55,883 nucleotides of DNA from a virus: positions 1 through 55,883 of IMG/VR virus record IMGVR_UViG_3300005264_000063; one strand, written 5' to 3'. Of the stretch, positions 8,043-43,659 are shown in pieces (the stretch's first letter is position 1; every line of letters starts with the position of its first letter). Both the position numbers and the translations under genes were made by a program. The notes under the pieces were generated by a model, which did not search any database, had not been told where the DNA came from, and saw nothing but the letters and a program-made list of their open reading frames with translations.

Positions 8043-8675
8043 TTATCTCCTGTAATATTGGCTTTTATTTCCCATATTTTGCAAAAAATCTCCCCATGAG
8101 AATTGCTTAGGCTTTTCAGGCGTTGGCGACCATGGCACCCATTGCTTAGAATACCCGCCTGTTTCTTCTAAAGTATTTGGGTCAATTCTACTTTCGTGCA
8201 TAACTGGAAACGCTCCATTTTTGATGTATTGAGGATTAGATTGGTCTGCTTCTAATAAGGACATATCCAAATTAGCCTGTGCATCATTTAACAATTTAGG
8301 AGTTGCTACTGCTGCAACATCACCTATTTTCTTTACAGCACTGACACCTTTTTTACCTTTTTTCAAAGCATTAGTCGCTGCTTCTATTTTGGCTGTCTCT
8401 TCTTGTATTTTCTTTATATCATTAAAGCCTTTTTCTATACTACTACCAGTTTTAGCACCTAGTGCTGCTCCACCGAGAGTCTTTGTCAATCCACTCCAAA
8501 ATCCACCTTGTGTACGACCTGGCTCTTGAACAGACTTTCCAGTCAAAGCACTATATTTATTGATATCTCTTGCTCTATTTATTGCGTCTTTCTCTTTACT
8601 GTTGCCAGATATAGCAGACCCTAGTCCAGATAAAGCACCTATTCCACCACCTATTAAAGCTCCAAGTCCTAACAT
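8043..8675 (-). CDS. Glycine-zipper internal virion/DNA-transfer protein
   Basis: A 210-residue protein starting at ATG 8675 (AGGAGA site; TAATG overlap with the upstream gene). The N-terminus is a hydrophobic glycine zipper (LGLGALIGGGIGALSGLGSA) and a second Gly/Ala segment occurs near residue 70 (KTLGGAALGAKTGSS). This pattern is typical of podovirus ejection proteins that cross or line the envelope. The C-terminus is Pro/Trp-rich and polar. Assignment rests on composition and neighbours. Confidence 0.65.
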   Translation of the reverse strand: MLGLGALIGGGIGALSGLGSAISGNSKEKDAINRARDINKYSALTGKSVQEPGRTQGGFWSGLTKTLGGAALGAKTGSSIEKGFNDIKKIQEETAKIEAATNALKKGKKGVSAVKKIGDVAAVATPKLLNDAQANLDMSLLEADQSNPQYIKNGAFPVMHESRIDPNTLEETGGYSKQWVPWSPTPEKPKQFSWGDFLQNMGNKSQYYRR

Positions 8676-9478
8676 TATGCTTTCTCCTGATTAGTTTTAA
8701 ATCCGCCAAATAACTCTCCGCCTTTTGTTCTAGCACCTAATCTTGATTGGCGTTCTTCTTCTGCAAATCTATCTTTTCTATCCATATTATAATTATCTAT
8801 AGATTGTCTTTGTCCACCTAATGCACTAAACATTCCTGGTAATTGCCCCATCATTTGTTGCTTACGCCCCATATCAGTTTCAGATATTCCAGCACGTTGT
8901 TCTAGTCCTTGTCTTGCCAACCCTTGACTTCCAAACATTTGGTCTCTACCCATGGAATTAGCCATACGCTCTCTTGAACCACTGCTTAAACCACCACTCT
9001 GTGCGAGTCTTGAAAACATTCCAGCTTGCTGTCCAGCTGTTCTTTTATTAAGGTCATCTTGAGCTGTTTGCTCTCCTAATCTTTGCCTGTCTTCACTAGC
9101 TTGCCCCCAACGAGATAAACCACCTGAACTAGCTTCACCATATAAATCGTCTAAAATTCCACCAGCTTTTCCAAATTCTTCTCTTTCTGCTACGTCTTGA
9201 GGCTTATACTCTCCATACATTTGTTTTATAGCGTCATCAGACAGTCCTAGTTGCCCCATTAACGCTTGTGTTCTATCAATCGTATTATTGTCTAAAGAAG
9301 AGTCAGAAAAATTCTGTTTAAAGTCGTCTACGTCTATGTCTCCCATACTATGCCTTATACCCGAATCTAATAGCTGCCGCTTTTCATCATCTGTGAAATT
9401 ACCAAGATTCTGCATTCCGCCCATCTCTTGCAATTTGCCTAGTAATTCTGGACTTATTTTTGATTTATCTATTGCCAT
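8675..9478 (-). CDS. Internal virion protein, Gly/Gln/Met-rich
   Basis: The start ATG 9478 shares a base with the stop of the adaptor gene (TAATG) and is preceded by AGGGAG. The 267-residue product is polar and repetitive (SGGLSSGSRERMANSMGRD, QQMMGQLPGMF), with no transmembrane segment. It sits directly behind the head-to-tail adaptor and before the glycine-zipper protein, matching the place of podovirus internal proteins. Specific function unknown. Confidence 0.58.
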   Translation of the reverse strand: MAIDKSKISPELLGKLQEMGGMQNLGNFTDDEKRQLLDSGIRHSMGDIDVDDFKQNFSDSSLDNNTIDRTQALMGQLGLSDDAIKQMYGEYKPQDVAEREEFGKAGGILDDLYGEASSGGLSRWGQASEDRQRLGEQTAQDDLNKRTAGQQAGMFSRLAQSGGLSSGSRERMANSMGRDQMFGSQGLARQGLEQRAGISETDMGRKQQMMGQLPGMFSALGGQRQSIDNYNMDRKDRFAEEERQSRLGARTKGGELFGGFKTNQEKA

Positions 9479-10554
9479 TAACATATACTCCCTGAATACG
9501 GGTCATGTTTTATCCGTATGTCTGTATTATCATCTGGTTGACGATAACTTAATGTTTGTTTCATAAGTTGTAGTTGTGTCATAACTTCTATATCAATATC
9601 TCTTTTTATCGGATTGCCTGGGTCTTTCAGCAATAGTAACTGCTTACTTCTTGAAATTATGTAACTGTCAAATTCTGGTATATCCAATATATCATCATCA
9701 CTAACTAATTTTCTAGGTTCTCTTATATAGTGCAATATAACATTATGTTCTATATCTGAAATAGGCAACTCTGTTATCTCATGGATATCAATAATAGCAT
9801 GACTATCTGGACTAGATATATGTAATATATAAGCTGCACGTATCTCGTTGAGACGTTCACTCGCTTCTTTTAAAGTAGATACTATTGATACATCTGGGAT
9901 AGAGCTATCAACGAGTTCTTGCCCAGTATGATAAGACCAAACAGAACTTTTAGCACTATCTGCTTGATGAGAAGAATAATTAAGCGATAATTCGTAGACT
10001 AAATCAAAAAGAAGATTTTTATTATATGGAGTTACACCTGTTACGACATCTGCCGTGTCAACACCTGTAGTATGAACGGTTATGTCAGATATATGAGAAT
10101 TAAAATTATCTCTTAAATTTATTGCTAATTTTATTGCTTTTGTAAAAGAAGTATCCTCATGCCCTGTCGGAAAAAGCTTTAATCTTACACCTTCTCTACT
10201 ATCATTTATTAATAGATATGCGTAATCATCATTTTCTTGATACAGAGATTCTAGCGAGTTATCTAAATCAAGTATTCTTTTTATTATATATTCTTCATAA
10301 TGCTTTGCATAAATTACACGTCTTATTTTGTCAGCGTATATATTGTCTGGTAAAGTGTATAGTGATTTGTTTATTTCTAACGGCAAGTAACTTTCTTCTA
10401 AAAAGTAATCCTCGTACATATTAAGGATTGTCGCTCCTGCATCAGTAATAGCTCTATTTATAGCACGATTGACTTCTTTAGACGTTATAAATTTCTCGTC
10501 ACCTAAGTCTAAGTCGTCTTGGAGTATTTCTCTTAAATCCAATAATGTTGTCAT
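9478..10554 (-). CDS. Head-to-tail adaptor (connector) protein
   Basis: A 358-residue protein. The N-terminus (LREILQDDLDLGDEKFITSK-type, then VNRAINRAITDAG) is the helical start typical of podovirus adaptors such as P22 gp4 or tail-tubular-A-like proteins that bind under the portal ring. A beta-rich middle and a C-terminal helical segment follow. It overlaps its neighbours by 4 bp (ATGA) on the upstream side. It would form the ring joining portal to tail hub. Family call by pattern and position, not by alignment. Confidence 0.62.
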   Translation of the reverse strand: MTTLLDLREILQDDLDLGDEKFITSKEVNRAINRAITDAGATILNMYEDYFLEESYLPLEINKSLYTLPDNIYADKIRRVIYAKHYEEYIIKRILDLDNSLESLYQENDDYAYLLINDSREGVRLKLFPTGHEDTSFTKAIKLAINLRDNFNSHISDITVHTTGVDTADVVTGVTPYNKNLLFDLVYELSLNYSSHQADSAKSSVWSYHTGQELVDSSIPDVSIVSTLKEASERLNEIRAAYILHISSPDSHAIIDIHEITELPISDIEHNVILHYIREPRKLVSDDDILDIPEFDSYIISRSKQLLLLKDPGNPIKRDIDIEVMTQLQLMKQTLSYRQPDDNTDIRIKHDPYSGSIC

Positions 10555-10886
10555 TTGTAAGTCCCTATTAATGCTCGTATTTCACAAGCTCTGTCTGTTG
10601 ATAAAACAATATTATTTTTATCAAACTTCTCATAAGTAAAACTATAAGTTGTATTAGACGGGATAACAGACATAACTATCACATCTTTTGGGACGTAACG
10701 CAAATTATGCTTTATCTTATAATCTGTTACAGTAGCTAAAACTTTAATGACCTTAAAAGTTCCTACAAAATTATTCAGAATATTACTATTTACTCCCTTA
10801 TTTAATTCTAGTAATATTTCTTTCAAAACGAGTTTATCTATATTTCCTTCATTGTCAAGCAATAAATTTATATCTATACTATTCAT
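10551..10886 (-). CDS. Tail/head-completion protein (111 aa)
   Basis: A 111-residue protein with a helical N-terminus and a C-terminal beta domain (FVGTFKVIKV ... IKHNLRYVPKDVIVMSV). The H-N-L-x3-P-K-D-V-I-V motif recurs in small phage virion proteins encoded next to tail genes. It overlaps both the tail-hub gene and the adaptor gene, so translation is coupled. It is probably a virion component of the neck or collar. Confidence 0.55.
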   Translation of the reverse strand: MNSIDINLLLDNEGNIDKLVLKEILLELNKGVNSNILNNFVGTFKVIKVLATVTDYKIKHNLRYVPKDVIVMSVIPSNTTYSFTYEKFDKNNIVLSTDRACEIRALIGTYK

Positions 10887-13800
10887 TTACTTCACTCGCA
10901 TTAGAAGAATAAGTGTCAAAATTCTCGCTAAATATATTGTAATATAGGTTATAGCTAATAATATTAACTATTTCGTTCTTAGGAATCCCTCTTATTATCC
11001 ATTTTTTTGTACCATTAATTAGTCGCCCAACATTATCAAATATCCTTATTGTTGCATCATCTATAACATCTGTTATTAAATAATCTTTAGTATATTCATC
11101 ATCTTCAAAACTTATATAGTACCCTGCACTATCTTTATCCCAAAAATAGTCTGTATTCGTTAGAGTAACTTTTAATATAGAAGGTAATATTGCTTTTGCA
11201 TGATAAGAGTTATAGCTACTAAAAACATATATGTTGCCTTCAAATTCGTATATACCATTAGTGTCGTGTCCGTTAAAAAAACTGTTTATCTCTCTATTGT
11301 CAAATCCTGTGCCATCATAAGATATACCGTATTCCCCGTTGTTAGCTACATATATCCAGAAACCAATATACTCTAATCCTTTTATATCCTCGCTAGTTGC
11401 TGTACCTATAATTGTCCATAAATCATCATCTACAGAGAATAAAGCTATACCATCTTTTCCCATAGTTATAACTTTAGAGTTATCACTAGCTACAGTAAGT
11501 AAATCTTTTGTAGTCCCTGTTGTTTTTTGAAACCAGTTCTCTCCATCAGAAGATACTGATAATTTGCCATTATCCCCAACGATATATATTTTATCACTTG
11601 CTACACATATATCATTTATATTGTTGCTGCCAAATCCTGTAGACCCTAAATTCCATGTGTTTTTATTTGTTGAATTATAACAACTTCCGTTCTTGCCTAT
11701 TACTACATAGACCCCGTCTTTATATTTAATTTTGTTAAGCTCGCCTGCTGTTACTGGCTTTATATCCCATGAAGGCAGTAAAGGAGAAAAAGCTATGCTT
11801 TCAGTGCCGTTGTGCTGTCCTATTACTGCGAACTCACCATTGACATAACCGACACCGTGTAAATCACCGTTTAAAGGAGATGTTATTTCTCCAAAAGTTC
11901 CACCGTTGTCTATATATAATGTATTATTTTCACAAAGGAATAAACGTGTATTATCATCTGAAACTACATTTAATATAGTATTGTGAAACATTTTTACATT
12001 ATCTGCAAATTCGTAAATGTCAGTATTCCATAAAACAGAAACTTCACCAGTACACATATCATCTGATTTTTCTATTTCTACAAATCCATTCGTTAATTTT
12101 ATTTGCTTAGTATAACTTCTTAATCCATTTTTAGCAATATATCTGATATGGTTAATATCTCTTGCGTTTTCCCATTTATAATCATTGCCAGCGTCTTCCC
12201 ATAAGACATAAGGTGTATTATACCTTAATTGGTCTTTAATATTGACTACACCTGTTTCTTTAAAAGATTGTAAGCCATCATTAGCCGAACTAGGTTGCAA
12301 GCTTAAATTAGAGATATTCTTACTTCTAACAGCTATTTTAGACCACCATTTTCTTACAGTCCTATTTCCACCATCTAACTCTGATGAGACATATTCCCAT
12401 ATTATCGCATCATGCCCCCATTCAGGAAGTGCTTTAGCATAATTAGGAGATATATCACTTCTGTATTTGCTTTTATGTATATAAATATATCCAAATATAT
12501 CACTTCTTATTATCTCGTTATCGTTGTTTATGTGCATTGCTATAGGATTAAAACTAATCCCACTCCATGTCGCAAAAGTCCCTGTTTGCTTAATTCCATA
12601 CCTTTCGTAAAAAATAAAAAAACTATCATTCATTAAAGAGTTATCATTTTTTTGACAAGCAAAATACATCTTCTTTTCTATTTTATCATAACGCCCTATT
12701 ATTTGACGTGCTTTATCAACCTTTTTATCTCCTACTTTTATTGTTTTTGTAATGCTAGAATATGTCTCGTTAAATTTATCACTTATTTTTATAAGTTTAT
12801 ATCCATCAGTAAAACAAAAACCTGTATTACCTGCGAAATAAGAACCATAAGTGCTTTTAGCAATACTGTTATCACTTACACATCCTACAGCACTGTCTAT
12901 TAAGACAGCTGTAATCATGCCCATACCTAAACTGTCTACAGAACCTTCTAGTCTGTAAGTAGACTTCTTTGTAAAGGCTATCATTATTTTATTAACACTG
13001 GTAAGTCCTGTAATATCATCATCCAGGTCTACATAAAAACTTCCAGGTACACTGTCTGGGTCTACAGAAGAATACATTATTCTATATGGCTTATCTTTAA
13101 AATTACCATAATACCCAACATTGTTTACTATTTCTACATATTTGCTTGGTATCGGTTGGTCATAATCAAGAACGCCACCATTAATGTATAGTTCTTGCAT
13201 TGTTTGTAAATCATTATCATTAAGCGTATCAACGATATTAGCACCACTATTTACGTCCGTCTCTCCAACAAGGTGGAAGTTTTGTCCGCCTTTTATAGTC
13301 CTAAATATTTTTACTTTTATATCTGCTAAACCATAATTAAACTGGTCAGAGTTATCTATCGTTTGAAATACTGATAGAGTTACGTTATCAGCACTTATAT
13401 CCGCTGGTCCATCTGTGATTTGCTTAAAATGTGTACTACTCCAATCTTCAAAAAGAACATTATTAACATTATAAGGTCTAACAAACACTAATGCGTATAT
13501 ATAGCTATTAGTATTAGCAGAATAAGACATTGTTGGGTCAGTTGTATATTCAGGTAAACCAGATGTTAATACTTTATAAGAGCTAGTTATACCATCATAA
13601 AAGACTTTTATTGACTTTGAGTTCTTGTCATTTGTTATAAACATGTGATTACGCCATTCAGCAAAACTAAAGTGTACTGTTTTTGACATTGGCTCATTAG
13701 GGTCGTCTATATAATCACCTGTATCAAAAGCCTTGTTGCCTGTATCTCCCAAAATCTCAATCATTTCACTTTCATTATATTTATATAATCTTCTTCCGCT

Positions 13801-19006: not shown

Positions 19007-21103
19007 TTATTGTAGTGCTTTTCCTACACCACTTAAAATATCAATCTGTGCCTGTTCTGGCATATCTTGAGCAAACTCTGTTTGGACTTTTTGCTTCTTG
19101 GCTTTTTCCATTACCCACTCAACTGTTTTTTGAGGTAATTTCACTCTGTCGCCGTCTGCATTATACATGTCTACTTTAACCATATTCCCGTCCATTGGAA
19201 TAAGACCGTTTTGTGCTTCTTTAAGTTCTTCCATTTTTCTGTTAAGTATTTTCGCTCGTGCCCTATATTGCTCCATATAATTTGCATGTATTGTTTGATT
19301 CTTGCTTGTTATGTATTTATAATCATTCTTCTTCATTCTCTTAACTAGAGCATCTACGATAGCTTCATTGTCGTCAAATTCTGACATCAACGGCATCTCT
19401 CCTCTATCAAGTTGCAATATCATAGATTCAATAACATCAGTGCTATCTATAATGTTTGTAAATATATCACGGTTTATAAAACTCATACCATCTCTAGCTA
19501 TTACACCAATTTGTCTTGCATCCAAGTTCCCGCCTGCATACTGTATCAAATCTCTTGATTGGATATATTTGCCCATGATACTATCTATATCGCCACTAAC
19601 AGGTTCTATTTTGATACTATAATTCATCGGATCTGTTTCTCTAAACTCTGCTATATTTATAGCTTCGCTTCTGCCTACAGCTCTTATAAGCATCTCATCA
19701 CGGTAAGAAGTTTTTGCTATTCTCAAACACACTTCCGTTATATCTATTAAAAATCTTTCAAAGGATGCTGCATATAAACTAAAAGCTTTTTTGTCTTTTA
19801 AAGAGCTATACAATGAAGCAAGTATATCTTGTTGACCTTTTTCTACTTCCATCTCTTTTATCATAGCTAGTCTATAAATCTCTGCTATCTGACTATCTAA
19901 GTAACTAAAAAATTGGTCTCCTGCACGCCCTTGTATTACTTTTGGCTCTAAGCCACTCTTTACTTTTATCTCACGCATACCAGGCAGTTTTGCCCCTTCT
20001 GACATGCCTTCACCAAACTGTGTGATTATTTTATCGTCACCCCATAATATTTGAGTTTCAGCAATCTTACTCGCCGTTCTATTTATCTCTGCTTGCACTG
20101 GACGCAATTGTTTTATTATAGAGAAACCACGACTACTTCCTGGATAACTATCAAATTGACAGTTAAGTATAGGAAAAATTGTCTTGCCGTCTTTATCCTG
20201 CATAAGATTGCTTGTTAGCAATATACCTCTGTCAGAAATAAGAAAGTATTTTCCTTCTGGAAATTCTGGCGATGGACGAAAGAAGAACTCTCTTACGTAA
20301 ACTCTACCATGTTTCTCAACAACACCTTCTCCAAGCATATCAAGCATATTGTATTTATCTTCTTCATCATTACCATCATCATTATCGCAATCTCCACCTA
20401 TAAAGCCTATCTTCTGCTTTAGCTCTTCACCAGAGAAATTTTCTTTTAACAATTCTATTAAATCTTTTTTCTTTGACATTTTTCTTAAACCAATGTATAT
20501 AGCATCATCAGGAGTTTCTGCACCTGTGTCCATAAACACATTATACGCTTCTATTATCTCAAAGTCAAAATCACCACTAAATACAGGTTTCTCTTTATCT
20601 ATAACTTGACGTTCTTCTACGACTACACCATCTACAGCGACCTGTTCTATAGAACCTTCATAGCCGATTAAATCTCCTTTGTTCTCATTAAAATCTATTT
20701 TAATCCAAGCACTGCCTATTACTATAAAATGTTTAGCTAACTTGTCGACCTTCTTTTCAAATTTATGCCTATATCTAATATCTTTCCATACTGCATCACT
20801 TAACTCTGCATCCTTCTTATCCTGTAATTCATCTTCATTATGTGGCATAACAGTAGTGCCTGGCGATAAACTAACTATACTATTCTCGTAACGCCTGCAT
20901 ATAGAATGTATATAGTTTTTAGTTAGTCTAATCTTGGCTTTATCGCTAGCCCTAGACTGTCTAACTCTCTCGTTAAATTTTGATTTCTGCTTAGAATAAT
21001 GTCTTCCAACGTCCAAGAGAACATTAGATTTCATCTCGCTGAACGTTTTATCGTCCTTTGAAATAGCAGATTCATATAGACTATCTAAATCTCGGTAATT
21101 CAA
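19007..21103 (-). CDS. Portal protein, P22 type
   Basis: A 698-residue protein, close to the ~725 of P22 gp1. N-terminal YTKNYIHSICRRYENSI-like segment, then VDKLAKHFIVIGSAWIKIDF, and the long helical stem and crown regions (IKQLRPVQAEINRTASKIAE) match P22-like portals. It forms the dodecameric DNA channel at one capsid vertex and binds the terminase and the head-to-tail adaptor. The start is TTG at 21101-21103, overlapping the upstream stop (ATTGA) and preceded by AAGGAATTT; no ATG fits the N-terminus, so this is a coupled rare start. Confidence 0.85.
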   Translation of the reverse strand: MNYRDLDSLYESAISKDDKTFSEMKSNVLLDVGRHYSKQKSKFNERVRQSRASDKAKIRLTKNYIHSICRRYENSIVSLSPGTTVMPHNEDELQDKKDAELSDAVWKDIRYRHKFEKKVDKLAKHFIVIGSAWIKIDFNENKGDLIGYEGSIEQVAVDGVVVEERQVIDKEKPVFSGDFDFEIIEAYNVFMDTGAETPDDAIYIGLRKMSKKKDLIELLKENFSGEELKQKIGFIGGDCDNDDGNDEEDKYNMLDMLGEGVVEKHGRVYVREFFFRPSPEFPEGKYFLISDRGILLTSNLMQDKDGKTIFPILNCQFDSYPGSSRGFSIIKQLRPVQAEINRTASKIAETQILWGDDKIITQFGEGMSEGAKLPGMREIKVKSGLEPKVIQGRAGDQFFSYLDSQIAEIYRLAMIKEMEVEKGQQDILASLYSSLKDKKAFSLYAASFERFLIDITEVCLRIAKTSYRDEMLIRAVGRSEAINIAEFRETDPMNYSIKIEPVSGDIDSIMGKYIQSRDLIQYAGGNLDARQIGVIARDGMSFINRDIFTNIIDSTDVIESMILQLDRGEMPLMSEFDDNEAIVDALVKRMKKNDYKYITSKNQTIHANYMEQYRARAKILNRKMEELKEAQNGLIPMDGNMVKVDMYNADGDRVKLPQKTVEWVMEKAKKQKVQTEFAQDMPEQAQIDILSGVGKALQ

Positions 21104-21411
21104 TCTTTAAATTCCTTTACTTTGTTTTCTTCCAGACTTTGTATAAACTCATGTGGATTCAACAAATTCTGTAAATCCATATCGTTTTCTTCATTTTTAT
21201 TACTATCTTTTTCAAGAATACCTATATCTTCCAATTTGTCAAGCTTAAAATCAAACTGTAAGGAGATTTTTTTTGTTTTTAATACCACAGCCCCTGTGTT
21301 CATCTCTCTGCATGCCCTGATAAATGTTATGGCTTCCTTAGTCTCCTGTCCCATAATAGTCGTTCCACTCTTCAAACTCCGAGTAAATATCTTCTTCAAC
21401 AATGACTTCAT
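21100..21411 (-). CDS. Small protein between terminase and portal
   Basis: Several starts are possible. ATG 21411 is preferred because GGGGAGACGATT precedes it; it gives 103 residues and overlaps the large terminase by 74 bp. Another ATG at 21354 would overlap by only 17 bp. The protein is charged with a short beta segment (AVVLKTKKISLQFDFKLDKL). No family recognised. The position suggests a packaging or head-assembly role. Confidence 0.5.
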   Translation of the reverse strand: MKSLLKKIFTRSLKSGTTIMGQETKEAITFIRACREMNTGAVVLKTKKISLQFDFKLDKLEDIGILEKDSNKNEENDMDLQNLLNPHEFIQSLEENKVKEFKD

Positions 21412-22849
21412 AATCGTCTCCCCTTGTATCATTCTTCTTTTCTACTTTTATCTCTTTTTTCTTTTCAATATTTTTAAAGTTAAACATTATTTTGCTTGTA
21501 GCATATCTTAACCCGTCTATACCATCATCTGTTGCTTTTGCTTTTAATGTACCTACCTTTAATCCTTTTAATTCATTCTCTAATAAGTAAGTATGTTCCA
21601 TTTCGAAGATATCTAGCATTCTATTCTTAAACAATGTGTTTAATAGTGTCTCCCCTATTGCATGAGACTTCTCTGCTGGTAAGACAGGTATCCCTGCTCC
21701 TAATGCTATATTCTTGAAGTCAGCACAAGCAAAATCATAATAGCAGCAAGTTACATTCTCACCTTTTTTCATTATAACATATCTATCTAAAACATCTTTT
21801 GCTGTAGTTATTTCTTTTGCATGCCCACCATGCCATAGTTTATACAGAGCAGCCTTCTCGTAAGTAGGACTAACAGCTACAAAGGCTATAGCAGATGGAT
21901 GGTTTTTACCACCACTGCCAATATCTATGCCAACATATTTATGCCAATGTTTAGGAATATCATACGGCTTAACAACATTGACAGACGGATTAAACGACTC
22001 ATATACACGCCCCTCATCTAAGACAAATCTCCCATATATCCTTCTTAGTATTTCAGATTCACTACTACATAAATTCTTTGCTTCTATTATATCTTCTTCT
22101 GTAAAACGTACAGTACCATCAGTATATTTCATACAATCGTACATGCTTATGTTCTGCTTAAAAGCTTTCTTAAAAGTCTCTCTCTCACCTTTTTCTTCCA
22201 TAGCACAACGCCACATCTCATTACCAGCTGTCGCTGTAAACACCATGTTAAAATATCCTTTAGTAGCAAATGTCCTCGCAACCAACTCATGGTAGAAGTC
22301 AGGAGGGTCTAATTCTTCATCAGTAGTAACCATATGCACAGAACTAGACTGTATATTACTAGCTTTCTGACCATAGTATTTAAAGACAAGTTTGGCTCCA
22401 GAATTAAAACGTAACATAGTAGGAGTTCTACCTTGTCCACGCTCTATCTTAAAGCCATACTTCTCGCTATTCTCAAAGCCTTTACACGGCAATAACTCTT
22501 GCCATTTTGTCTCAAACTCATCATATGTTATTTTTGCACCAGGGTATAGATACCACAATAAAGGAGGAGTACCTATACTATCTGCCCACAACTCATCCCA
22601 ACTAGGGATACATAATGGAGGGTAACCTTCTGGGTGAGTCGCTATTATTAAGTTTTTCTGTATAGCTGTTGTTGATTTACCTATCTGATTAGCGGCACAT
22701 ATAAAGTTAGTTCGGTTTAATGACTTAAAAAACTCTAGTCGCCATTGAAACGTCTTGCCACCTCTAATATATAAAAGAGGTAGACCTTCTTGCATTTTCT
22801 TTAATCTTACACGTAGTATCTCTTTTTTCTTATCAGATATAGATTGCAT
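21338..22849 (-). CDS. terL: Terminase large subunit
   Basis: A 503-residue packaging motor and headful nuclease. The ATPase domain has a Walker A-type loop AANQIGKST (residues 52-60), and Walker B plus catalytic glutamate in VHMVTTDEELD (near 171-181). The RNase H-like nuclease domain starts at YVGIDIGSG (Asp near 309), with later acidic residues including CCYYDFACAD and TDDGIDGLRYAT. The start ATG directly follows the upstream stop (TAGATG). It acts with the small subunit (24076-24708) at the portal. Confidence 0.9.
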   Translation of the reverse strand: MQSISDKKKEILRVRLKKMQEGLPLLYIRGGKTFQWRLEFFKSLNRTNFICAANQIGKSTTAIQKNLIIATHPEGYPPLCIPSWDELWADSIGTPPLLWYLYPGAKITYDEFETKWQELLPCKGFENSEKYGFKIERGQGRTPTMLRFNSGAKLVFKYYGQKASNIQSSSVHMVTTDEELDPPDFYHELVARTFATKGYFNMVFTATAGNEMWRCAMEEKGERETFKKAFKQNISMYDCMKYTDGTVRFTEEDIIEAKNLCSSESEILRRIYGRFVLDEGRVYESFNPSVNVVKPYDIPKHWHKYVGIDIGSGGKNHPSAIAFVAVSPTYEKAALYKLWHGGHAKEITTAKDVLDRYVIMKKGENVTCCYYDFACADFKNIALGAGIPVLPAEKSHAIGETLLNTLFKNRMLDIFEMEHTYLLENELKGLKVGTLKAKATDDGIDGLRYATSKIMFNFKNIEKKKEIKVEKKNDTRGDDYEVIVEEDIYSEFEEWNDYYGTGD

Positions 22850-29775: not shown

Positions 29776-30096
29776 ATGATAAATAATGCAATTTTAACGG
29801 GAACTATAGGGGCTTCTCCTATGGAAATAAAAAACGATGAAGAAGAAACTGTTTTAAGTTTTAATTTATCTACAAAATCAATTTCTACAATATTAGGAAT
29901 TGAAAAGGAACGAATAGACTGGCATAGAATAAGCATTTTAAAAGAAAATGCAAAAGACATAAAACATATTTTGAAAAAAGGTGTTAAAATTTTAGTGAGG
30001 GGGAATTTGCAGAATAACGTTTATGTTAAAAACGAAAAAAAGGTTTATAGATATGAAGTCTTTACAAACAGCATAAAAAAAGTGTCTAATGACTAG
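29776..30096 (+). CDS. SSB-like OB-fold protein (106 aa)
   Basis: A 106-residue protein behind AGAGGGAGA. It fits the bacterial SSB OB-fold order: NNAILTGTIGASPM, VLSFNLSTKS, DWHRISILKENAKDI, KKGVKILVRGNLQNNVY, and VYRYEVFTNSIKKV. The acidic C-terminal tip that recruits partner proteins is missing (ends VSND), unlike the other two SSB-like proteins here. It may be a specialised early ssDNA binder. Confidence 0.65.
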   Translation: MINNAILTGTIGASPMEIKNDEEETVLSFNLSTKSISTILGIEKERIDWHRISILKENAKDIKHILKKGVKILVRGNLQNNVYVKNEKKVYRYEVFTNSIKKVSND

Positions 30097-37127: not shown

Positions 37128-37487
37128 CTAGAATGGAATTTCTGAGTCATCTACGTAAGAATCAGATTGCCCTTCTAATTTTATTTCTGCAATCTTTATC
37201 ACTGTTTTATAAATAACAGAGCCGTTCTCATCCAGCCTGTCGGAGTATCTACCGTCTTCACCTTTCGCACTATCTTTTGTCCCCATTAAACTACCCTCTA
37301 TTGATAGCCTCGCACCTTTCTCTATCTTGTTATCATGTAAAAAATTGATAACACCATAATCAAAAGACAAACATTCGTGAAAGGCACTGTACCCTCCATC
37401 CATTGTCTTCATTGATACTTTTGCAAATTTTTCCTTTGCTAAAACATAAGTTACTTCTCCAACTAATTCTACCTTGTTAATGTCCAT
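37128..37487 (-). CDS. ssb: Single-stranded DNA-binding protein
   Basis: 119 residues behind GGGGAGTAGATT. OB-fold pattern (MDINKVELVGEVTYVLAKEK, then ARLSIEGSLMGTKDS, VIYKTVIKIAEIKLEG) and an acidic C-terminal tip DDSEIPF, the partner-binding peptide of bacterial SSBs. First gene of the minus-strand recombination unit, divergent from the RHH-ERF unit. Confidence 0.8.
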   Translation of the reverse strand: MDINKVELVGEVTYVLAKEKFAKVSMKTMDGGYSAFHECLSFDYGVINFLHDNKIEKGARLSIEGSLMGTKDSAKGEDGRYSDRLDENGSVIYKTVIKIAEIKLEGQSDSYVDDSEIPF

Positions 37488-37572: not shown

Positions 37573-37601
37573 TTGACGACGGCGTATATCTGTGTTAACT
37601 A
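37573..37601 (+). promoter_or_regulatory. Possible promoter of the RHH-ERF-NAD operon
   Basis: TTGACG (37573-37578), a 17-base spacer and TAACTA (37596-37601), 29 bp before the ribbon-helix-helix gene. Because that gene is first and encodes a DNA-binding protein, the promoter may be autoregulated. Confidence 0.4.
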
Positions 37602-37629
37602 TATTCTATATAAAAAAAAAGGGGGTTTT

Positions 37630-37794
37630 ATGATAGGCGAAAAGAAGACAACGTCAGTTGGGACTAGGTTTACCGAAGCAACAACGAAACAATTAAGGCA
37701 ATTAGCTCTTAAAGAAAGGAGACCTATTTCTGTTATGGTAAGGTTGATTGTTGAAGATTTCTTTGACAAAACAAAAAAGGGGGAAAAGAAATGA
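37630..37794 (+). CDS. Ribbon-helix-helix regulator (54 aa)
   Basis: ATG 37630 follows GGGGGGTTTT. 54 residues with an Arc/CopG-type fold: beta strand TTSVGTRFTEATTKQLRQL, then helix ALKERRPISVMVRLIVEDFF. Likely a dimeric DNA-binding repressor of its own operon, which contains ERF, exonuclease and NAD genes. Confidence 0.75.
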   Translation: MIGEKKTTSVGTRFTEATTKQLRQLALKERRPISVMVRLIVEDFFDKTKKGEKK

Positions 37795-38450
37795 AGGAAT
37801 TAGTTAGCATACAAAGTGAGTTAAAAGCCCCAAAGGGACAAAAGAATAACTTCGGGAACTATAAGTATAGAAGTTGTGAAGACATACTAGAAGCGTTAAA
37901 ACCTTTGCTAAAGAAGCATGAATGTTTTTTAACAATAGAAGATGAGATAGTACAGGTGGCTGACAGAATTTATGTCAAAGCTACAGCGAGCATAAATAAG
38001 GTGTTAGACGTAACCAAAGCCAAAACTGTAAAAGTATCTGCTTATGCAAGAGAGCCTTTAAACAAAAAGGGGATGGATGAAGCACAGGTTACAGGGGCTA
38101 CAAGCTCATACGCTAGAAAATATGCTCTTAATGGGTTGTTTGCTATTGATGATACTAAGGACTCGGATTTTACAAATAAGCATGGAAAGGATAAGCAAGA
38201 AACTACTGTTAAGCCAAAAGTGTCAGTTAAGCAGCCAGAAACACTTGTTAAACGGATATCTGTTAAAGACAGAAATGCCTTGATTAAGAAAGTGCAAGAC
38301 AAAGATATGTCGCTTGATGATATTAAAAAAATACTCTCCGAGTTTAAGTTTAATAGCACTACAGAGGTGACAGTTGATAAGTACGAAGATGTAAAAAAGG
38401 CAGTTGATAATTATGGCATAGATTTTGCTTTTGGTAAAAACAAGAGTTGA
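37791..38450 (+). CDS. erf: ERF-family ssDNA-annealing protein
   Basis: 219 residues; start overlaps the previous stop (ATGA). ERF signature: FGNYKYRSCEDILEALKPLL near residues 21-40, and AQVTGATSSYARKYALNGLF then AIDDTKDSD near 97-125. P22 Erf is 204 aa. It anneals single strands after exonuclease resection and can circularise or recombine the genome. The C-terminal part is a separate helical domain (KVQDKDMSLDDIKKILSEF). Confidence 0.85.
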   Translation: MKELVSIQSELKAPKGQKNNFGNYKYRSCEDILEALKPLLKKHECFLTIEDEIVQVADRIYVKATASINKVLDVTKAKTVKVSAYAREPLNKKGMDEAQVTGATSSYARKYALNGLFAIDDTKDSDFTNKHGKDKQETTVKPKVSVKQPETLVKRISVKDRNALIKKVQDKDMSLDDIKKILSEFKFNSTTEVTVDKYEDVKKAVDNYGIDFAFGKNKS

Positions 38451-38515
38451 TTGAAGTTATAGCTGTGATTATTTGTGCTTTTGTTATAGGTATTCTCGTT
38501 AAAGATGATGAATAA
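38447..38515 (+). CDS. Possible 22-aa membrane peptide
   Basis: TTG 38447 overlaps the ERF stop and opens 22 codons that read almost entirely as a membrane helix (EVIAVIICAFVIGILVKDDE). Hydrophobic composition and overlap suggest a real small protein; only a weak AAGAG precedes it. Confidence 0.3.
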   Translation: MIEVIAVIICAFVIGILVKDDE

Positions 38516-38531
38516 AAAATAAGGGGTTTTT

Positions 38532-39200
38532 ATGAAAATATATAATATGGAACAAAGAAGTGAAGAGTGGTTTAATATTAAGAAAGGTAAGATAAGTGCT
38601 AGTGATGCACATGTGTTATTTACTCTAGGTAAGGCAAAAGTTTTAAAGTCTGGGATAGTTTATCCTTCTACTCTAACAGCAGGAGCTAGTACGCTGATTG
38701 ATAAATTAGTCGCACAAGTATTTCAAAAAACGAGAGAGGAAACATTTATCTCTGCAGCAATGGAACGTGGGATTTTGCTAGAGCCGATTGCAAGAAACCT
38801 TTATGCAGAAACAATAGGTGAAGAAATAGAAGAAGTCGGTTTTATAGAGAATGACTTAGGTGAATATGGTTGCTCTCCAGACGGTGTTATTAAAGGAAAA
38901 AAAAGGGGGGCAGAAATAAAAGTTAGGAACAATGCTCTGTTTAGTGCCTTTGTAACATCTGGACAATTAACGCCAGAAGAGTTCTCTCAAGTGCAGTTTA
39001 GCATGTTTGTTACAAAGTATGACTCATGGGACTTAGTGCAATATAACGACAATTTTAATAATCCTATACATAGCGTTAGAGTATTACCAGAACGAGAAGG
39101 AGACAATTCTGCTTTCGCTAGGTTTGATAGAGCTTTAGCTATAATGTTACCAGAGTTAAAAGAAAGGGTGGCTAAAATGGCTGCACATCAGGGGGTGTAA
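38532..39200 (+). CDS. YqaJ-type recombination exonuclease
   Basis: 222 residues behind AAGGGGTTTTT. Lambda-exonuclease/YqaJ pattern: RSEEWFNIKKGKISASDA at the start (W-x-R/I ... ISAS), GILLEPIARNLYAE, then GCSPDGVI and GAEIKVRN, giving the catalytic D ... E-x-K. It resects dsDNA 5' to 3' to feed the ERF annealase upstream. Confidence 0.85.
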   Translation: MKIYNMEQRSEEWFNIKKGKISASDAHVLFTLGKAKVLKSGIVYPSTLTAGASTLIDKLVAQVFQKTREETFISAAMERGILLEPIARNLYAETIGEEIEEVGFIENDLGEYGCSPDGVIKGKKRGAEIKVRNNALFSAFVTSGQLTPEEFSQVQFSMFVTKYDSWDLVQYNDNFNNPIHSVRVLPEREGDNSAFARFDRALAIMLPELKERVAKMAAHQGV

Positions 39201-39202
39201 AG

Positions 39203-40657
39203 ATGATTAATTCTCAAGTTTTAACATTGACAGATTTTTATAAAACAGACCATAGGAGTCAATATCCTGATAAAACACAAATGGTTTATTCTAATTGGAC
39301 ACCTAGAATGAGTAGAATCAGTGGCGTTGACTCAGTCGTGGTTTTTGGGTTGCAATATCTTATTAAAGAATATTTGATAAAACAGTTTAACGATAATTTT
39401 TTCAATAAGCCTTTAGAGGAAGTGTTAACTGCTTACAAGAGAAGATTAGATAATTCTTTGGGAAAAGACTCTGTAGATTTATCTCATATTACAGATTTGC
39501 ATAAATTAGGTTATTTACCTATAGAAATTAAGTCATTGCCAGAAGGAACTGTCTCTCCAATAGGGACTCCTATGATAACAATCTGTAATACTGACAAAAA
39601 TTTCTATTGGATTACTAATTTTTTAGAGACACTTATTTCAAATATTTTATGGCTTCCAATGACTTCTGCTACTACAGCATATAGTTTTAAAAAGATGCTG
39701 AACAAGTACGCCGAGAAGACATCTTCATCTCCAGAGTTTGCATGTTTTCAAGGGCATGATTTTAGTATGAGAGGTATGGCTGGAATAGAGTCTGCCGCTA
39801 TGAGTGGGGCTGGGCATTTATTGTCTTTTAAAGGAACAGATTCTATTCCTGCTATAGATTTTTTGGAAACATATTATAATGCTAATAGCGATAAAGAGTT
39901 AATAGGGGTGAGTGTCCCTGCTACAGAGCATAGTGTTATGAGTATGGGTAGAAAAGAAAGCGAGAGAGAAACTTACATAAGGCTTATCACAGATGTTTAC
40001 CCTACAGGAATAGTAAGTATAGTATCTGACACATGGGATTATTGGAAAGTTTTAACAGATATTCTTCCTTCTATAAAAGAGTATATAATGAATAGAGCTG
40101 GAAAACTTGTAATAAGACCAGATAGCGGAGACCCTGTTAAAATTATTGTCGGAGATGAGAACGCAGCAAAAGGTAGCCCTGAATTTAAAGGCTCGGTTGA
40201 GGTATTATATGAGACTTTAGGCGGTCTTGTTAACGATAAAGGGTACAAAGAGTTAGATTCTCATATAGGTCTAATATATGGAGACAGTATAACATTCGAT
40301 AGAGCAAATGAGGTTTGCAAAAAATTAGAAGCTAAGGGTTTTTCTAGCACTAATATTGTTTTTGGAATAGGTAGTTATACTTATCAATATGTTACTAGAG
40401 ATACATTTAGTTTTGCTATTAAATCTACAGCAGGGATTATAGACAATAAACTTGTAGAGATATTTAAAGACCCTAAGACAGACAGCGGTTTTAAAAAGTC
40501 TGCCAAAGGTTTGTTAAAAGTAAATAAGGATTTGTCTTTTGTTGATAGAGTTAGCTTAGAGGATGAAAAAAATAGTATATTAGAAACAGTTTTTAAAAAT
40601 GGAAAGATAACAAAAGAAGTCTCGTTGCAAGAGATAAGAACAAGGATAGGTGTGTAA
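39203..40657 (+). CDS. Nicotinamide (phospho/ADP-)ribosyltransferase, NadV/Namat type
   Basis: 484 residues, like NAMPT (~490). Landmarks matching NAMPT: FSMRGMAG with Arg190 (human R196), FKGTDSIPAI with Asp213 (D219, nicotinamide specificity), VPATEHSVMS with His243 (catalytic H247), VIRPDSGDP with Arg305/Asp307 (R311/D313), LIYGDSI with Asp361 (D354). The phosphate-binding loop reads FGIGSYTYQYVTRD instead of the animal FGSGGGLLQ form, as in phage enzymes. It either makes NMN from nicotinamide and PRPP, or, as Namat in the NARP1 system, makes NAD+ directly from nicotinamide and ADP-ribose pyrophosphate. The PRPP-synthetase-like gene 1 bp downstream favours a two-gene NAD+ rescue unit. Confidence 0.85.
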   Translation: MINSQVLTLTDFYKTDHRSQYPDKTQMVYSNWTPRMSRISGVDSVVVFGLQYLIKEYLIKQFNDNFFNKPLEEVLTAYKRRLDNSLGKDSVDLSHITDLHKLGYLPIEIKSLPEGTVSPIGTPMITICNTDKNFYWITNFLETLISNILWLPMTSATTAYSFKKMLNKYAEKTSSSPEFACFQGHDFSMRGMAGIESAAMSGAGHLLSFKGTDSIPAIDFLETYYNANSDKELIGVSVPATEHSVMSMGRKESERETYIRLITDVYPTGIVSIVSDTWDYWKVLTDILPSIKEYIMNRAGKLVIRPDSGDPVKIIVGDENAAKGSPEFKGSVEVLYETLGGLVNDKGYKELDSHIGLIYGDSITFDRANEVCKKLEAKGFSSTNIVFGIGSYTYQYVTRDTFSFAIKSTAGIIDNKLVEIFKDPKTDSGFKKSAKGLLKVNKDLSFVDRVSLEDEKNSILETVFKNGKITKEVSLQEIRTRIGV

Positions 40658-40658
40658 T

Positions 40659-41420
40659 ATGATTAGTGTAAAAAATGTTAAATATAAAGATTTTTCGTTT
40701 AGTGCTGGAGAGTACCAGTTTAAGATACTAGAGGTTGAAAGCGGTGGCGTAATAGAAATAGATTTAAGGTATGAATCAGATGCAGAGCTGGTTAGAATAA
40801 TGCTGATAAATAATGCTATCAGAGCATATTTGGAATTGAAGGGGTTATCAAAAAGAGTAGTGTTGAATATTCCATATATACCGTATGGTAGACAAGACAG
40901 AATTTGCCATGAGGGGGAGGCTTTTAGCTTGGAAGTCATCGCTGGGTTGATAAACATGTGTTGTTTTGACGAAGTTCTTACATTAGACACTCATAGCGTG
41001 GTGTCTTATTCTATAAACAATCTGGTGGACATGGCTCTTGACTATGGTTCTGCTAGACGCAAGACATGTGTTATTGCCCCAGATGCAGGAGCTGGAATAA
41101 GAGCCAAAAATTTTGCAGAAGCCAATAGTATACCAGATGTGTTTATACTAGATAAACAAAGATGTTCTAAAACTGGACATTTGCTTTACAAAGATATATC
41201 AGAAAAACTGTTAGAGAGCATAAATAGCTATGAAAATATTATAGTAGTAGACGATATATGTGATGGAGGAAAAACTTTTATAGAGTTAGCTAAACTTATT
41301 AAAAGAAAAGACTTAACACTGCGTGTGTCTCATGGTATTTTTTCAAAAGGCAAGAAAGAATTAGAGTTGTATTATAAAAATATAATTGTTTTAAATAATA
41401 TGGAGAGGGGCGTAGCATGA
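40659..41420 (+). CDS. PRPP-synthetase-like enzyme (Prs or ADP-ribose pyrophosphokinase)
   Basis: ATG 40659 follows AAGGATAGG, one base after the transferase stop; 253 residues, shorter than cellular Prs (~310). Motifs: IPYIPYGRQDR (72-81; ATP site), EVLTLDTHS (105-113, with His112), VIAPDAGAGIRAK (138-150), and the ribose-phosphate loop VVDDICDGGKTF (196-207, where cellular enzymes have VDDxxDTxGT). Shortening and the changed loop (DGGKT) suit a different substrate. In NARP1 the equivalent Adps pyrophosphorylates ADP-ribose for Namat; alternatively it simply supplies PRPP. Confidence 0.8.
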   Translation: MISVKNVKYKDFSFSAGEYQFKILEVESGGVIEIDLRYESDAELVRIMLINNAIRAYLELKGLSKRVVLNIPYIPYGRQDRICHEGEAFSLEVIAGLINMCCFDEVLTLDTHSVVSYSINNLVDMALDYGSARRKTCVIAPDAGAGIRAKNFAEANSIPDVFILDKQRCSKTGHLLYKDISEKLLESINSYENIIVVDDICDGGKTFIELAKLIKRKDLTLRVSHGIFSKGKKELELYYKNIIVLNNMERGVA

Positions 41421-41629
41421 AAAGATTAGAAGACGAAAGCTTTGACAAGTATAAGGAAAGAAGGTTGGAAGACAATAAGAGTACAGAGAAAAATCTTAAA
41501 GGAAAGGTTGTGTGGACTGTAGCAAAAGGGGCGTACGTTAACCATTATAAACCTATTAGGAAAGCTCTGCAAGAAGAAAAAGCTGCGATGAAAGAAGAAA
41601 GAAGAAAGGTTAAAAGGGCAGCTAAGTAA
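41417..41629 (+). CDS. Small basic protein after the NAD genes (70 aa)
   Basis: 70 residues, ATGA overlap with the synthetase gene. Very basic and helical (FDKYKERRLEDNKSTEKNL; EEKAAMKEERRKVKRAAK). Probably nucleic-acid binding. No family recognised. Confidence 0.55.
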   Translation: MKRLEDESFDKYKERRLEDNKSTEKNLKGKVVWTVAKGAYVNHYKPIRKALQEEKAAMKEERRKVKRAAK

Positions 41630-41853
41630 TGATTGAGTGCAAAGAGTGTGGGAAAAAGTTTAGAAGTATAGCTCCCCATGTTTTATTTAAACATAGTATA
41701 ACTCTTATTGAATATTACAATAAGCATATAGGAAAAACATTCTGCAAGAAATGTGGGAAACCTTCTAAGTGGAAAAACTTTAGAGAAGGGTATGAAGATT
41801 TCTGCAGTACATGCAGACCGAAAGGGAAACACAGTAAAGGGGTCAGGCATTGA
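41629..41853 (+). CDS. Zinc-finger protein, MucR/Ros-like (74 aa)
   Basis: 74 residues, TAATG overlap. First motif IECKECGKKFRSIAPHVLFK with H ... H gives a C2H2-type finger followed by S-I-T-L-I-E-Y-Y as in MucR/Ros-like phage fingers; a second site is FCKKCGKPSKW ... FCSTC. Such modules often accompany homing-nuclease or DNA-binding proteins. Confidence 0.65.
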   Translation: MIECKECGKKFRSIAPHVLFKHSITLIEYYNKHIGKTFCKKCGKPSKWKNFREGYEDFCSTCRPKGKHSKGVRH

Positions 41854-42020
41854 CAAGCAATAAGCCTAAAGTATGTATAAAATGCGGGCAGGTGTTTTAT
41901 TCTCAAGAAGAATGGGACACCTGTTTTGAGTGCAGATTAAAAGGAGGGGGCAATGAAAGAAAGTCAAAAAACATGGATTGTGAAAATGCTAAACATAAAA
42001 GGGAATATAACAAGGAATGA
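41850..42020 (+). CDS. Zinc-ribbon ORF, possible (56 aa)
   Basis: TTG 41850 overlaps the previous stop and follows AAAGGGGTCAG. VCIKCGQVFYSQEEW and TCFECRLKGG give a C-x2-C/C-x2-C site in the first 30 residues. The rest overlaps the next gene, which has its own strong ribosome site, so the C-terminal half may be incidental. Confidence 0.4.
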   Translation: MTSNKPKVCIKCGQVFYSQEEWDTCFECRLKGGGNERKSKNMDCENAKHKREYNKE

Positions 42021-42147
42021 ATGTCTAGCTGCCTATATCTCAAGATTAGGAGCGATTATTAACATATTGAAAAAAGAAGGCTGGGTGTTTGAATCAAAAT
42101 ATGTGAATGGCGACTATGTATATAAAACGGTCAAGAGAGGTAAATAA
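41953..42147 (+). CDS. Winged-helix-like DNA-binding protein (64 aa)
   Basis: 64 residues behind AAAAGGAGGGGGCA. IVKMLNIKGNITRNECLAAY, then ISRLGAIINILKKEGWVFES is the pattern of small phage winged-helix proteins (helix-turn-helix, then a wing). Likely a DNA-binding regulator. Confidence 0.65.
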   Translation: MKESQKTWIVKMLNIKGNITRNECLAAYISRLGAIINILKKEGWVFESKYVNGDYVYKTVKRGK

Positions 42148-42320
42148 TGCCTAAGTATTTATATGAATGTGAGAAATGTAAAAAAGAAGTTAGCCTAGTC
42201 AAAACAATAAAAGAAAGAAATAAAGCTGTATGCGAAAAATGCAAAACTCCACTAAAAAGAAAAGTGGAAGTCAATAGTTTTATATTATTAGGGACTGGGT
42301 GGCAAAGAGACTTGGGTTAA
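42147..42320 (+). CDS. FmdB-like zinc-ribbon protein (57 aa)
   Basis: 57 residues, TAATG overlap. Begins PKYLYECEKCKKEVSLV, second pair CEKCKTPLKRKVE, then FILLGTGWQRDLG: the FmdB/putative regulatory-protein zinc-ribbon pattern ending in F-x-L-x-G-x-GW. Last gene of this plus-strand operon; its end overlaps the convergent spanin gene by 33 bp. Confidence 0.65.
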   Translation: MPKYLYECEKCKKEVSLVKTIKERNKAVCEKCKTPLKRKVEVNSFILLGTGWQRDLG

Positions 42321-43296: not shown

Positions 43297-43659
43297 TTAA
43301 AAATCCACCAAATCCTCGTTTTTACCTATCCTTTCAGATAGCATTTGATTTTTAGAACGGCTTGTTATCTCAAACTGCAATACTTTTAAAACAAGAGTGG
43401 ATATCCTTTTGCCGCCTAACTCCATTTTTTTTGTGCCTATATATCCTGTTGCGTTTATCTTATCGCCAAGGTTTATATAGTCAAGTGCTATTTTTGCAGG
43501 TCCTCCATTTGCAGCGACTTTTATTGGCTCGCTGATTCTTTTTCCAAAATGGTTAAACCTGTTTACATAGACTGAAAAAAAAACTGAGTATTTGCCAAAC
43601 TCACGAGAGTAGTCTTTGATAGTCTCGCCGACTACCCCTGATATTGCAAAAGTATTCAT
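43297..43659 (-). CDS. SSB-like protein in the lysis operon (120 aa)
   Basis: 120 residues behind AAGGGGGCTT. OB-fold order (MNTFAISGVVGETIKDYS; KYSVFFSVYVNRF; IKVAANGGPAKIALDYI; KINATGYIGTKKMELGGKRI; TLVLKVLQFEI) and an acidic tip EDLVDF that resembles the SSB partner-binding peptide. Unusual in a late, lysis-side position. It may coat DNA late in infection, or be an SSB decoy. Confidence 0.65.
   Translation of the reverse strand: MNTFAISGVVGETIKDYSREFGKYSVFFSVYVNRFNHFGKRISEPIKVAANGGPAKIALDYINLGDKINATGYIGTKKMELGGKRISTLVLKVLQFEITSRSKNQMLSERIGKNEDLVDF

Follow-up and report, generated by a model that had tools for sequence, protein, structure and literature searches.

A predicted phage NARP1 pair for NAD+ reconstitution, with Namat encoded ahead of a divergent Adps

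Two adjacent genes of a phage genome (IMG/VR record IMGVR_UViG_3300005264_000063), coding respectively for a NAMPT-like and a Prs-like protein, raise the question of whether their products rebuild NAD+ from ADP-ribose and nicotinamide or constitute a conventional salvage route via PRPP and NMN. We analyzed the entire record, a stretch of 55,883 nucleotides (henceforth the window), and the features of the two proteins lead us to predict, with a probability of roughly 90%, that they form a phage example of NARP1, a counter-defense system that was reportedly published in 2024. The genome is AT-rich (33% GC) and codes for a terminase, a portal, and decoration proteins. The two genes lie in a plus-strand run extending from approximately 37573 to 42320, which comprises, in order, a small ORF, the genes for an ERF annealing protein and a YqaJ-like exonuclease, the NAMPT-like and Prs-like genes, and further small ORFs, some of them zinc-ribbon-like (Table 1). 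The NAMPT-like ORF begins 2 bp after the YqaJ-like stop codon and ends with TAA, and the Prs-like ORF follows after 1 bp with no gene in between, as an earlier note made from the sequence alone had observed. The start codon of the Prs-like ORF is most likely the ATG at 40659 rather than the GTG at 40650, which would add three residues. More tentatively, we suggest that the pair might be expressed early along with the ERF/YqaJ recombination genes; a promoter scan of the window gave no clear excess over shuffles.

Table 1. Features of the predicted NARP1 locus and its upstream neighbors, in window coordinates
Feature	Position	Strand	Basis or remark
ERF-family annealing protein, upstream neighbor	37791..38450	+	Pfam ERF E=1.4e-40; context only
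YqaJ-like exonuclease, upstream neighbor, outside the pathway	38532..39200	+	Pfam YqaJ E=1.4e-16
Predicted Namat-type nicotinamide ADP-ribose transferase, NAMPT/NAPRTase superfamily, 484 aa	39203..40657	+	PHROG 448; identity to SPbetaL1 Namat; Namat clade
R38 codon (SPbetaL1 Namat R40), clamp loop, adenine stacking	39314..39316	+	ungapped local alignment
Selectivity-clamp helix motif GIGSYTYQYVTRD, residues 388-400	40364..40402	+	consensus GSX-phi-X-phi-X-phi-TRD of PMC12774641
Predicted Adps-type ADP-ribose pyrophosphate synthetase, Prs-related, 253 aa	40659..41420	+	PHROG 619; Adps clade; AlphaFold model
Adps-type ribose-phosphate loop DDICDGGKTF, residues 198-207	41250..41279	+	versus E. 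coli Prs DDMIDTGGTL

The 484-residue protein matches PHROG 448 ('nicotinamide phosphoribosyl transferase', E=3e-197), Pfam NAPRTase (E=2.5e-42), and NAMPT_N. Its best relatives of solved structure (9w5x/9w5w, E=1e-169) align with it end to end, and their sequence and residue numbering fit the Namat of Bacillus phage SPbetaL1 (PMC12774641), to which the window protein is 54.8% identical. The catalytic core and nicotinamide site are complete (F187, R190, D213, H243, R305, D307, and D361, situated in the motifs HDFSMRG, GTD, PATEH, IRPDSGD, and YGD), and all of these residues except F187 had been picked out by the earlier note at exactly these positions. Crystal structures of SPbetaL1 Namat revealed an adenine 'selectivity clamp' that sets Namat, acting on ADP-ribose pyrophosphate (ADPR-PP), apart from NAMPT, acting on PRPP; it is made up of the loop residue R40 and the motif GSX-phi-X-phi-X-phi-TRD, whose third and seventh positions are aromatic, and the R40A/F392G double mutant loses the formation of NAD+ from ADPR-PP while keeping that of NMN from PRPP (PMC12774641). 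This clamp is complete in the window protein: R38, Y392, Y396, T398, R399, and D400 correspond to R40, F392, Y396, T398, R399, and D400 of SPbetaL1 Namat, with the motif GSYTYQYVTRD at residues 390-400 placing Y392 and Y396 at motif positions 3 and 7. In the alignment around R38 (WTPRMSRISG versus WTPRTSRVED) window residue n locally equals SPbetaL1 residue n+2, and R38 is itself of the kind by which the stacking function of the clamp loop is recognized (either Arg, or Lys/Tyr with a stacking residue next to it on the C-terminal side). The ligand pocket, inspected through these residues, hence favors NARP1. The caveat of the earlier note that the substrate is not readable from sequence is in part outdated, as the clamp (PMC12774641) predicts the use of ADPR-PP.

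The 253-residue protein is recovered by PHROG 619 ('ribose-phosphate pyrophosphokinase', E=2e-59) and is weakly Prs-like by general models, with TIGR01251 scoring it at 85.6 bits, below the cut-off of 113. We could confirm that it falls some 60 residues short of cellular Prs (253 against 315 aa in E. coli) and that it has DGGKT, followed by F, in place of the canonical loop DTxGT. Judging from the homologs compared, both traits are the norm for phage Adps, whose ORFs are mostly 253-327 aa long, and not peculiar to the window phage. The loop takes the form DDICDGGxTF in most Adps, versus DDLSSFGGTF in SPbetaL1 and DDLTSYGGTF in Staphylococcus phage 812; the Thr is gone and the Phe is present in both types. 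The Prs catalytic residues are kept (R78, D80, R81, H112, D142, K166, R168, D198, and D199), and the protein displays the Adps signature S113, V115, C201, G203, and F207, where E. coli Prs has A, Q, I, T, and L. Two of the signature residues, viz., S113, directly after the catalytic His (E. coli H131), and F207, after the loop (E. coli L229; Leu, Ile, or Met in Prs), occur in 59/59 non-redundant Adps, whereas C201 is found in 52/59 and G203, replacing the loop Thr (E. coli T225), in 46/59. We located no paper defining the residues by which Adps chooses ADP-ribose over ribose-5-phosphate, a selectivity called obscure in the introduction of PMC12774641; the Ser after the catalytic His, the Phe after the loop, and the loss of the loop Thr are candidate determinants of this choice.

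Phylogenetic trees, which the earlier note had proposed as a check, place the 253-residue protein inside the Adps clade and apart from cellular Prs, and the 484-residue protein, in a tree constructed without H. ducreyi NadV, inside the Namat clade and outside the PRPP-type NAMPTs (SH-aLRT 99 for each clade stem). Neither protein clusters with NadV/Prs enzymes, and both placements favor NARP1. The Adps clade makes up 76 rows of the 84-sequence Adps/Prs tree and includes the proteins from DyoEdafos, ICP1, SPbetaL1, and Bas63, with bacterial, archaeal, and one huge-phage Prs lying outside it. The DyoEdafos Adps and Namat have been reconstituted, making NAD+ in vitro (PMC13232231), and there is genetic evidence for the ICP1 Adps (PMC11559045). 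The window Namat groups with those of the IMG/VR contig L041 and the Manatee Spring podovirus, and the window Adps with that of L045 rather than with the Adps of the former two. Although the two trees differ, neither forcing the window Adps together with L041 and Manatee Spring (p-AU 0.27) nor forcing the window Namat together with L045 (p-AU 0.11) is rejected; therefore, we do not claim a partner swap. The differing groupings and the reversed gene order would also fit a scenario that we regard as highly improbable: the Adps expected to accompany this Namat was exchanged or changed strongly, and the pair may thereby have been adapted to another substrate derived from ADP-ribose and released by a different defense.

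Across the loci that we fetched, an Adps-like gene is present in 69 of the 76 with the aromatic clamp; among the remaining seven, six come from contigs that are short or truncated, and in one (P100) the partner was detected only with the SPbetaL1 query. Phage NAMPTs with no Adps neighbor mostly have GMGGGLLQ at the clamp region, and no Adps was found in the fetched regions around the GGGLLQ-bearing NAMPTs of K41P2, AS4, and PVA23. This comparison yields an annotation rule, namely that the clamp motif is to be judged jointly with the loop of Adps. Adps precedes Namat in 49 of the 58 non-redundant Namat loci, with the order reversed in five and no partner seen in four; the Namat-first order (5/54 non-redundant pairs) is that of the window, cr111_1 (L004), L007, L008, and L042.

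We propose that the 253-residue Adps would move the pyrophosphate of ATP onto free ADP-ribose to form ADPR-PP, whose pyrophosphate the 484-residue Namat would then replace with nicotinamide, yielding NAD+ directly. By analogy to the characterized homologs, this NARP1 chemistry is very probable for the window pair. As ADP-ribose and nicotinamide are the products that NADase defenses (TIR, SIR2, and SEFIR effectors) would leave behind, the infected cell would regain NAD+ and the phage could finish its replication, and counter-defense is probably the chief use of the pair. The competing interpretation of canonical salvage, with the 253-residue protein as a short PRPP synthetase and the 484-residue protein as a NadV-type NAMPT that together supply NMN from ribose-5-phosphate and nicotinamide, draws on the same superfamilies, on most annotations naming both enzymes thus, and on the consideration that a host NMNAT would complete NAD+ and render a phage one unnecessary. 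Moreover, PRPP is also a substrate of Namat in vitro, turned over roughly half as fast as by human NAMPT (PMC12774641), so some NMN synthesis by the window pair is possible. Salvage as the actual pathway is nevertheless very unlikely: the window protein has clamp aromatics (GSYTYQYVTRD), unlike NAMPTs with the clamp-less signature (GGGLLQ or similar), human NAMPT with GSGGGLLQKLTRD in the clamp region, and the solo NadV of H. ducreyi with GAQTYQRNTRD, in which both adenine-stacking aromatics are missing. Likewise, the 253-residue protein groups with neither cellular nor archaeal Prs and has G203 for the loop Thr and F207 for Leu, whereas L033, a Prs-like protein outside the Adps clade, has a Prs-type loop end and is encoded near a clamp-less NAMPT. 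The H. ducreyi NadV, a member of the same enzyme family, is 47% identical to the window Namat, because of which closeness to Namat alone leaves the substrate unsettled; however, it stands alone on the 5.6-kb plasmid pNAD1, with neither the clamp aromatics nor an Adps, and helps as a natural control for the window, which has both.

If the chemistry is that of NARP1, the pair might still serve mainly to sustain a high NAD+ level while the phage replicates, or to reuse ADP-ribose of other origin, rather than to defeat a defense. Its position among DNA recombination genes with no visible anti-defense island, and the presence of homologous pairs in bacterial genomes (see also PMC12774641), would be compatible with such a function; but the window proteins scanned yielded no ADP-ribosyltransferase, macro, Nudix, or NADAR domain, and the characterized phage pairs counter NADase defenses (PMC12774641, PMC13232231, PMC11559045), making it unlikely as the main role. 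It is extremely unlikely that either gene, or both, has lost its activity or been repurposed. Adps is indeed short and divergent (39% identity to its nearest match; a terminal branch of 1.6). Its divergence, together with the outlier sites C169 (D in most Adps) and FSAGE (FSDGE in E. coli Prs), also counts against the NARP1 reading itself. Against inactivation, both reading frames are intact, Namat retains its full core and clamp, and the window Adps keeps all 15 columns that are invariant among 35 Adps. Its AlphaFold model is also confident (pLDDT 92.4, pTM 0.81) and has a Prs fold (best PDB match 3mbi, TM 0.67), a result that bears on the fold and not on the ligand.

The window pair is an ordinary, well-supported new example of NARP1, the peculiarities of which, namely the reversed gene order and the divergent Adps, are small. 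It resembles the SPbetaL1 system in its adjacent genes, the same catalytic core of a 55% identical Namat, and an equivalent clamp, with a Tyr for Phe392; it differs in that SPbetaL1 has Adps first, with an Adps of the other loop type that is a distant relative of the window protein. Mycobacterium phage DyoEdafos likewise has members of the same clades, with the Adps loop DDICDGGGTF and the Namat clamp GSFTYQHNTRD, but encodes Adps first and RyDEP (gp78) between both genes. The nearest viral Namats, those of the Manatee Spring podovirus (MW202524) and L041 (about 61-62% identity), are accompanied by similarly short Adps (253-259 aa ORFs) with the same loop DDICDGGKTF as in the window, but there too Adps precedes Namat. 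NARP2, reportedly described in a 2024 Nature paper as comprising Nampt and Nmnat and operating via PRPP and NMN, is akin to the window pair in also being a phage system that rebuilds NAD+ from nicotinamide. Pfam and PHROG scans, covering a subset of the ORFs of a record that may be a fragment, gave no NMNAT-type domain.

Searches with the portal gave no match in a collection of 50,697 phage records, and the terminase yielded no relative in IMG/VR, which places the phage in a group that has been sampled poorly; with this carrier the NARP1 pathway extends to little-known phages. The region in question spans 19007-22849. Apart from the enzyme pair, comparison of the window ORFs with the fetched loci gave at most a weak terminase hit, and no tRNAs or terminal repeats were found in the window. 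Two SSB-like proteins are encoded at 29776-30096 and 43297-43659, and a third candidate (37128-37487) has no Pfam match.

Several of the fetched loci show variations of their own. In L019 (IMG/VR 3300003886_000013, 8662-11076), Namat has an in-frame insert of ~270-300 residues within the active-site IRPDSGD motif, with intein features, viz., a starting Cys, a TPNHR block, and a terminal VCGN. The Namats of L029, L030, and L034 are in two ORFs, a pattern that an intron, an insertion, or a frameshift could produce; these ORFs are ~680-730 bases apart in the first two and overlap in different frames in L034. A hybrid pair occurs in L046 (6515-8550), where the Adps-type loop DDICDGGKTF adjoins a clamp-less NAMPT with GGLLLQQHNRD, and L013 (9950-11473) codes for a Namat-like protein whose clamp is altered to GSGAYMFNVTRD and longer by one residue, next to an Adps with the unusual loop DDVCAKGGTF. 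Adps-Namat pairs are also present in many bacterial contigs (L062-L088, from Saprospiraceae, other Bacteroidota, Acidimicrobiales, and Erwinia), the nearest Namat among these being 62% identical to that of the window. Lastly, L058 (2084-5301), which is labeled Acinetobacter phage MD-2021a and looks chromosomal, has a prs-nadV-nadM cluster; its prs product has the Adps signature DDICDGGATF and its nadV product the Namat signature GSFTYNYLTRD, such that this may be a NARP1-like pair beside NadM.
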